A stretch of 64,000 nt of DNA from Clostridia bacterium (GTDB taxonomy: Bacteria; Bacillota; Clostridia; Christensenellales; SZUA-584). Below the pieces are notes generated by a model, which did not search any database, was not told the DNA's origin, and worked only from the letters and a program-made list of their open reading frames with translations. Position 1 is the first letter of the stretch. Each line of letters begins with the position of its first letter. Made by a program: the position numbers and the translations under genes. Below are positions 14,888 to 15,356 of the stretch, in pieces. The stretch is from the NCBI GenBank assembly GCA_018648645.1, contig JABGQS010000006.1, positions 1 to 64,000 of the forward strand, read 5' to 3'.

Positions 14888-15080
14888 GTATTCTCCTTGT
14901 ATTTCAATAATTATCGTTATAGTAACATAGTATTAAATTCACATCAATATAAAAATTTCATATCGCTTACTCTGCTCCCTGCGGTCGCGACACGGCGGGC
15001 TGGCTCACCTTCATCTGCCGCATAAAACACACGAAGTGTGCGGCGGTGAGTGAGTGTTCAAGTCCGCAGTATTATATATC

Positions 15081-15118
15081 AGAAATAGCACAGTCCCAAA
15101 AGGGACTATACTATTTCT
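15081..15118 (-). terminator. Terminator-like hairpin in repeat copy A
   Basis: AGAAATAG / CTATTTCT outer arms and AGTCCC-AAAA-GGGACT inner arms form one long stem. Its place relative to the tRNA 3' fragment is the same as that of the true tRNA-Leu terminator in copy B. Confidence 0.6.
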
Positions 15119-15138
15119 GGTACCGAAGACCGGACTTG
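15119..15138 (-). pseudogene. tRNA-Leu 3'-end fragment (20 bases with CCA complement)
   Basis: These 20 bases are identical to 15271-15290, the acceptor and T-arm end of the functional tRNA-Leu(UAA) gene, and lie 152 bases from it. The T at 15270 that supplies the final A of the encoded CCA is also matched at 15118. The rest of the tRNA is missing. Such short 3'-end duplications are typical of integration or duplication at tRNA genes. Confidence 0.75.
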
Positions 15139-15290
15139 CTCCGCTCCCTATGGTCGCTATCACGGCGGGCTGACTCACCTTCATCTGCCGCTGGCAGCGG
15201 TGAGTCAGCGTTCAAGTCCGCAGTATCTCATATCAAAAAAGAGCACCCCATAAATGGGATACTCTTTTTTGGTACCGAAGACCGGACTTG
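15139..15290. repeat. Palindromic GC-rich repeat unit, copy B
   Basis: Second copy of the unit: CACGGCGGGCTG at 15161, perfect outer arms CTGACTCACC/GGTGAGTCAG with an inner CTGCC-GCT-GGCAG hairpin, GTTCAAGTCCGCAGTAT, a terminator hairpin (15235-15270) and the tRNA-Leu 3' end. CGGACTTG at 15131 and CAAGTCCG at 15213 form terminal inverted repeats that mimic the T-arm of the tRNA. Copy B lacks the CACAC/GTGTG hairpin of copy A. Confidence 0.75.
15235..15270 (-). terminator. Terminator of the tRNA cluster
   Basis: AAAAAAGAG / CTCTTTTTT arms with a CCC/GGG inner stem. On the minus strand it directly follows the CCA end of tRNA-Leu(UAA), with a T run at its end. Confidence 0.75.
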
Positions 15291-15356
15291 AACCGGTACG
15301 CTCCGAAGAGCACAGGATTTTAAGTCCTGGGTGTCTGCCAATTCCACCACTTCGGC
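15270..15356 (-). tRNA. tRNA-Leu (UAA)
   Basis: Class II tRNA of 87 bases with encoded CCA. The acceptor stem GCCGAAG pairs with CTTCGGT, the anticodon stem-loop is CAGGA-CTTAAAA-TCCTG giving anticodon UAA, there is a long variable arm, and the T-loop is GGTTCAAGTCC. It is the last of four tRNA genes transcribed leftward. Its 3' end is duplicated in the flanking repeat. Confidence 0.97.

Follow-up and report, generated by a model that had tools for sequence, protein, structure and literature searches.

Behind the tRNA-Leu(UAA) gene in the window, the 64,000-nt stretch of a Clostridia bacterium contig (JABGQS010000006.1) analysed here, lie two palindromic units that carry copies of the tRNA's own 3' end. 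What are these units, and how did tRNA sequence come to form their ends? The original prediction took them for a small mobile palindromic element, or a duplication-prone att site, that uses the tRNA T-arm as its end sequence. We find a covarying family, structured on the tRNA strand and tied to the 3' ends of tRNA and tmRNA genes, whose arms follow the host tRNA and whose sites are occupied in some genomes and empty in others. We therefore regard the feature, with a probability of about 0.6, as two tandem members of a non-coding family of tRNA-linked repeats that arose by insertion with duplication of the tRNA 3' half. On our best reading, the family is a clostridial branch of protein-free repeats, like the tRNA-linked repeats (TLRs) of E. 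coli, that insert at tRNA T-loops.

Anatomy of the two-unit array

The host tRNA-Leu(UAA) gene (15270-15356, minus strand) is intact according to ARAGORN and Rfam RF00005 and is the final gene of a four-tRNA cluster, Leu(UAG)-Gly-Cys-Leu(UAA). The array downstream of it (14970-15274) comprises one intact and one decayed unit, and its meaningful strand is the minus, i.e. the tRNA strand, which corrects the orientation in which it was first read. In that direction, the order is tRNA, terminator, inverted T-arm, core, tRNA 3' half, terminator, inverted T-arm and core. Unit 1, with all its parts on the minus strand, begins with a palindromic, terminator-like hairpin with an A-tract and a T-tract (15231-15274; inverted repeat I2), which constitutes its spacer X. 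This is followed by the left arm CGGACTTG (15213-15220; from the sequence and the R1 model described below), an inverted T-arm copy that provides the 5' strand of helix P1 and after which AAC stands on the tRNA strand. Next come the P2 hairpin GCTGACTCACC...GGTGAGTCAGC (15169-15209; from the sequence and folds), the conserved junction CCGCCGTGATA (15158-15168; family consensus CCGGCGTGATA in alignment A1), and the P3 hairpin with tandem G.A mismatches, GC-GA-CC-ATA-GG-GA-GC (15143-15157; from the sequence and alignment). A GGAG (15139-15142) precedes the right arm (15118-15138), which directly repeats the 3' half of tRNA-Leu over 21 nt, C56 through CCA, is identical to 15270-15290 and contributes its first 8 nt as the 3' strand of P1.

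The R1 match to unit 1 spans 15132-15219, and this is the only unit of the array that scores with the model. Unit 2, on the same strand, has the duplicated terminator hairpin as its spacer (15077-15122; inverted repeat I1), the same inverted T-arm copy CGGACTTG (15059-15066; from the sequence and the inverted repeat) and a decayed core (14970-15058). In the latter P2 is present, P3 lies at 14974-14988, the junction reads GTGTCGC in place of GTGATAGC, and the right arm was lost near 14963-14969. The array has two occurrences each of CACGGCGGGCTG (at 15161 and 14991) and GTTCAAGTCCGCAGTAT (at 15056 and 15210; chance expectation 0.19 at 3 mismatches). The region folds far better than shuffled sequences on both strands (z = -8.3 and -8.5). 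The window units (~150-170 bp) contain no integrase, their longest ORFs, of 71 and 81 aa, spanning the hairpins and the tRNA copy.

All parts named in the original prediction were recovered, namely the repeats, the CTCACC/GGTGAG arms, the two terminator hairpins and the copy of the tRNA 3' end. There are indeed two units, but in place of fixed lengths of 168 and 152 bases we find repeat spacings of 152-170 bp that vary with the part compared, and the distal unit is decayed. Likewise, of the tRNA 3' ends attributed to both units, one is a displaced 21-nt copy while the other is the end of the real tRNA-Leu.

A family sited at tRNA and tmRNA 3' ends

The same unit recurs both in its own genome and in other genera. 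An exact-pattern scan covering 84,980 species recovered about 50 true loci from Clostridia, Peptococcaceae, Desulfosporosinus, Lutispora, Gracilibacter and others, about a third of the matches being due to chance and coming mostly from GC-rich genomes without the structure. For about 45 pattern hits, a tRNA or tmRNA gene lies at most ~240 nt upstream, in all cases on the same strand. The covariance model R1, built from 29 pattern loci and yielding rough E-values, detected 14 units at E<0.01 in the own genome, distributed over several tRNA loci. It further identified 11 carriers among the 391 genomes of a class-level sample and 11 among the 398 of a phylum-level sample, some of them single-contig assemblies; these samples hold one genome per species, and many loci come from metagenome bins. 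Most of the loci found in the class and phylum by R1 alone again adjoin a tRNA or tmRNA. Units typically lie ~60-230 nt downstream of it and almost always on its strand, so that the siting at tRNA 3' ends that had been envisaged holds virtually always, once tmRNA is included.

In the own genome, related units occur behind tRNA-Leu(CAA), tRNA-Leu(CAG), tRNA-Arg(ACG) and tRNA-Gly(CCC), with weaker relatives behind tRNA-Gln(CUG) and tRNA-Tyr; tandem arrays reach four units, at tRNA-Arg(ACG). A unit lies behind tmRNA at three loci (L092, L178 and L279), of which L178 is recognized as tmRNA by its 3' end alone, with no ARAGORN call. Several loci away from any tRNA appear to be arrays severed by a contig end or an intervening insertion. 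Two orphan arrays of the own genome, L005 (C1:930-1290) and L167 (C20:2719-2869), adjoin a tRNA-Ser acceptor remnant, TTTCTCCGCCA; an integrated element may have separated them from their tRNA. An Rfam search of the window and relatives returned nothing but tRNAs above threshold, the viral contigs, phages and plasmids searched had no match to the family, and our search of open-licence papers found no earlier description of it in clostridia.

A three-hairpin structure on the tRNA strand

On the tRNA strand, the general order of a unit is terminator or spacer, inverted T-arm copy, P2, GGCGTGATA, P3, GGAG and the direct copy from C56 to CCA. On the evidence of the alignment, each unit is a three-hairpin structure with P2 and P3 set in a junction that is closed by P1, and P1 itself consists of the inverted and direct copies of the T-arm and acceptor 3' strand of the adjacent tRNA. 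The covariation score is 0.396, against 0.133 for shuffled alignments and at most 0.120 for slid controls, and 86 double-changed cells are seen versus 25.8 in shuffles. Two-sided changes occur at 13 of the 18 pairs, with P1, P2 and P3 all covarying. Pairs 3 and 4 of P3 are tandem G.A in about 12-13 of the 29 sequences; the others mostly have A-T, G-C or C-G at these positions. The tandem G.A is stable on the tRNA-sense strand only, which is also the better-folding strand for 44 of 53 elements; thus, the structured molecule is tRNA-sense RNA or tRNA-sense single-stranded DNA.

Three other identities were considered and rejected. The R-box motif of integron attC is absent. A hammerhead-like ribozyme has a similar junction order, but its catalytic CUGAUGA/GAAA bases are lacking in a comparison by eye with the consensus. 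A self-targeting guide RNA would lead to cleavage of a tRNA of the host itself.

The arms follow the host tRNA

In 37 elements the position of the left arm was fixed independently of the tRNA. In 27 of them the 7-mer of this arm is that of the element's own tRNA, as against 7.1 expected and a maximum of 16 in 20,000 shuffles, a significance that is overstated because related elements are not independent. The right 7-mer agrees in 32 of the 37, and the full 21-nt direct copy is exact in 21 (31 of 46 in a set pre-selected for near-matching left arms). Left-arm matches are mostly confined to 7-10 nt and could partly stem from compensatory mutation rather than copying. The ends of the units accordingly do copy the tRNA T-arm, as proposed originally, but they vary by host tRNA and are not a fixed end sequence.

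In one MAG, the cores at Ser(TGA) and Ser(GGA) are 94.7% identical while their arms differ, and in another genome Arg(ACG), Pro(CGG) and Leu(TAG) carry near-identical cores with different arms. Core identity averages 0.725 between different tRNAs within one genome (reaching 0.947), 0.671 between genomes at the same tRNA and 0.606 for all other pairs, and some same-tRNA copies in related genomes, with identities of 0.93-0.97, are clearly inherited. Therefore, both intragenomic spread and vertical inheritance occur. In genome G807 the tRNA genes do not encode CCA and the unit copies likewise lack it, which identifies the gene or primary transcript as the template and contradicts retro-copying from the mature tRNA.

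Occupied and empty sites

Comparison of genomes uncovered an occupied/empty polymorphism at the same tRNA. In Desulfosporosinus, the site between tRNA-Ser(TGA) and tRNA-Arg(TCG) is occupied in three genomes (G443, G448 and G449) and empty in five (G442 and G444-G447), in which a short spacer separates the two tRNAs. This spacer matches the flank to the right of the displaced tRNA 3' half at the occupied sites; hence, the extra DNA amounts to a new tRNA 3' half, spacer and core placed exactly before C56. Similarly, in one genus with genomes of 0.8-1.2 Mb, the occupancy of Leu(TAA), of Leu(AAG) and of Ser(GGA) differs from species to species. Target duplications extend from C56 to 0-20 nt past CCA (L086, L136 and L175). 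The 'empty' sites can also be explained by precise deletion between direct repeats, and the direction of change is not proven by them.

Relationship to known repeats and integrative elements

The closest known kind, which the original prediction did not name, is the TLRs. Knowledge of them in E. coli dates back to 1978, and they include the RtT RNA (Rfam RF00391) of the tyrT operon. E. coli has 22 such repeats at ten loci, which directly follow a tRNA or 5S rRNA gene, number one to five per locus and share 18-19 bp of 3' identity with the upstream tRNA or rRNA (PMC8144298). They were described as having had no known function; rrA, rrB and rrF are conserved, transcribed, processed and bind Hfq and CsrA (PMC8144298). 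The clostridial units are likewise found downstream of a tRNA or tmRNA on the same strand, their 3' end copies that of the upstream tRNA (exactly, over 21 nt, in the window), and they occur in several copies per locus and at several loci per genome (14 R1 hits, with up to four in tandem).

Outside the published definition of TLRs, both groups have in common an inverted arm, a multi-hairpin junction and a tandem-GA hairpin. The E. coli units start with a tRNA-matching inverted copy (tyrV GGGGAAGGAT, 10 nt; argV GGGAGGAT, 8 nt; with one mismatch at argZ and argQ). At tyrT/tyrV and argV this arm follows the repeat's own tRNA and closes a multi-hairpin junction, and the tandem-GA hairpin precedes the right arm. 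In contrast, the clostridial copy starts at C56 and is longer, at 21 nt versus 18-19 nt, the E. coli units lack the GGCGTGATA...GGAG junction, and rrA, rrB and rrF are conserved within Enterobacterales whereas the clostridial family is patchy. R1 had no match in the E. coli tyrT region, and RF00391 had none in the window and relatives, as against four in the E. coli tyrT control region. Given the same architecture but models that do not cross-match, we class the family with the TLR kind and not as RtT.

Comparable differences separate the units from other elements. Like REP/BIME sequences and MITEs, they are short, non-coding, palindromic, multicopy and variably present; however, those have fixed ends with no tie to tRNA, whereas the clostridial ends are copied from the host tRNA, and the Y1 transposase (RAYT/TnpA) that partners REPs is missing from several clostridial carriers. 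Integrative elements at tRNA T-loops similarly produce direct repeats of the tRNA 3' half and keep the tRNA functional, but exceed the clostridial units by thousands of bases; the latter are gene-free, about 85-150 nt long, and have a structured core and an inverted T-arm copy.

It is a speculative thought, and quite unlikely to hold, that a single protein-free class, structured as RNA or single-stranded DNA, embraces the clostridial family and the TLRs of E. coli as branches, its members inserting at tRNA (and 5S) 3' ends, rebuilding the gene they enter and copying its sequence into both of their arms; the E. coli copies would be old and partly domesticated. With its arms matched to many kinds of tRNA and tmRNA, a second, sequence-unrelated family in Bacillota makes the phenomenon more general than a peculiarity of E. 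coli and opens to direct testing how host tRNA sequence gets into a repeat. It also accounts for many partial tRNA copies and adds an RNA family missing from Rfam.

Mechanism and alternative explanations

As a mechanistic model, we tentatively propose one that will more likely than not prove wrong in its particulars. A core copy would insert into the T-loop of a tRNA gene, directly ahead of C56, and the 3' half of the tRNA would be duplicated (21 nt, with 0-20 nt of flank). The tRNA would thereby stay whole, its old 3' half being displaced downstream. The direct copies inherent in this anatomy would allow recombination that yields tandem arrays or removes a unit cleanly. The T-loop sequence GTTCRANYC is near-universal among tRNAs. 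The likeliest driver would be strand transfer or template switching of a structured single strand at the T-loop, and we favor this driver since it could exploit this homology, would copy local tRNA sequence into both arms and would need no dedicated protein.

Four rival explanations were considered. The tandem arrangement of the two window units is what a one-off local duplication with chance hairpins would produce, but homologous cores elsewhere in the genome and across the phylum refute it, and its probability is negligible. It is also improbable, if less so, that a dedicated trans-acting enzyme (a reverse transcriptase, single-strand transposase or RNA-guided nuclease) moves a non-autonomous core with the tRNA as guide or primer. 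Such an enzyme would account for the long target duplications with a precise end at C56 and a variable other end (L086, L136 and L175), and the host-derived arms beside a structured RNA resemble a guide and scaffold. Nevertheless, none of RVT_1, Y1_Tnp and TnpB is common to all carriers: RVT_1 is missing in seven, including near-complete genomes of 0.8-1.2 Mb, Y1_Tnp in G000 and six others, and TnpB in most. More generally, no partner enzyme or mobility intermediate was seen in the genomes analysed, and the autonomous partner once sought for the element did not materialize.

That the units are debris of tyrosine-recombinase islands, whose repeated integration and excision at the T-loop sublocation left tandem 3' ends with element ends, appears very improbable. 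Integration at tRNAs likewise gives direct repeats from T-loop to CCA, partial tRNA copies remain where islands have entered tRNA genes (PMC9897764), and the own-genome arrays on C1 and C20 look split from a tRNA-Ser acceptor end. Against this, the structured core is shared across orders with compensatory changes, the units lack an integrase, an inverted T-arm copy is unexpected for attL/attR, and viral contigs, phages and plasmids are without a match; the duplication-prone att site of the original prediction is not supported either, no att-type island having been found. More serious is the prospect of a host-selected RNA, a trailer cut from the pre-tRNA transcript with an sRNA or tRNA-processing role such as has been proposed for rrB of E. 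coli, whose copies are multiplied by ordinary duplication. Strong covariation with invariant junction bases and the constant sense orientation agree with it, as do units L067, L086 and L126, which are embedded in tRNA operons with no terminator and, from this position, must presumably be transcribed. By analogy, the processing of E. coli rrA, rrB and rrF and their binding of Hfq and CsrA (PMC8144298) suggest function over selfishness for such repeats. Yet the family is patchy (about 3% of genomes), varies in presence within a genus, has no tRNA preference and includes decayed, truncated and orphan copies (window unit 2, L205 and the arrays on C1 and C20), making this explanation unlikely though far from negligible. 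Insertion with duplication of the tRNA 3' half remains our preferred reading, and the original idea of a mobile element is partly supported, recurrence across genera and empty sites being consistent with it.

Other repeats at tRNA and intergenic loci

Further repeats occur at some of these loci and elsewhere. In L213, at tRNA-Leu(AAG), P3 bears a ~200-nt insert of another palindromic repeat, which is also found downstream in L207. L210 and L211, both at tRNA-Leu(AAG), together with L206 and L223, contain other tRNA-linked repeats, some copying from the D-loop instead of the T-loop. The D-loop type consists of an inverted D-arm CTGCCATTCCGCCAC, a 40-nt hairpin and then the tRNA from D-loop to CCA, and a GCACTATCGGGGTCCC...GAGCGATAGTGC type occurs among the same loci. 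In the own genome, L046 at tRNA-Arg(CCG) and L044 at tRNA-Met carry a second family that ends in ...CTCCCGTCTTCGAATCC plus the tRNA 3' half and is without the GTGATAGC core, while tandem acceptor-end copies and a hairpin, GTGTGCCAGCAGCGTGACGCTGCACCC, lie downstream of tRNA-Arg(CCT) at L028. Six Desulfosporosinus loci (L060, L074, L093, L110, L121 and L131) are larger intergenic repeats, often in tandem, with the ends GCGTGATAGCG...GAGCGGAGCAA, whose terminal inverted repeats are unrelated to tRNA; L060 and L121 have weak R1 scores (E 0.1-0.2).
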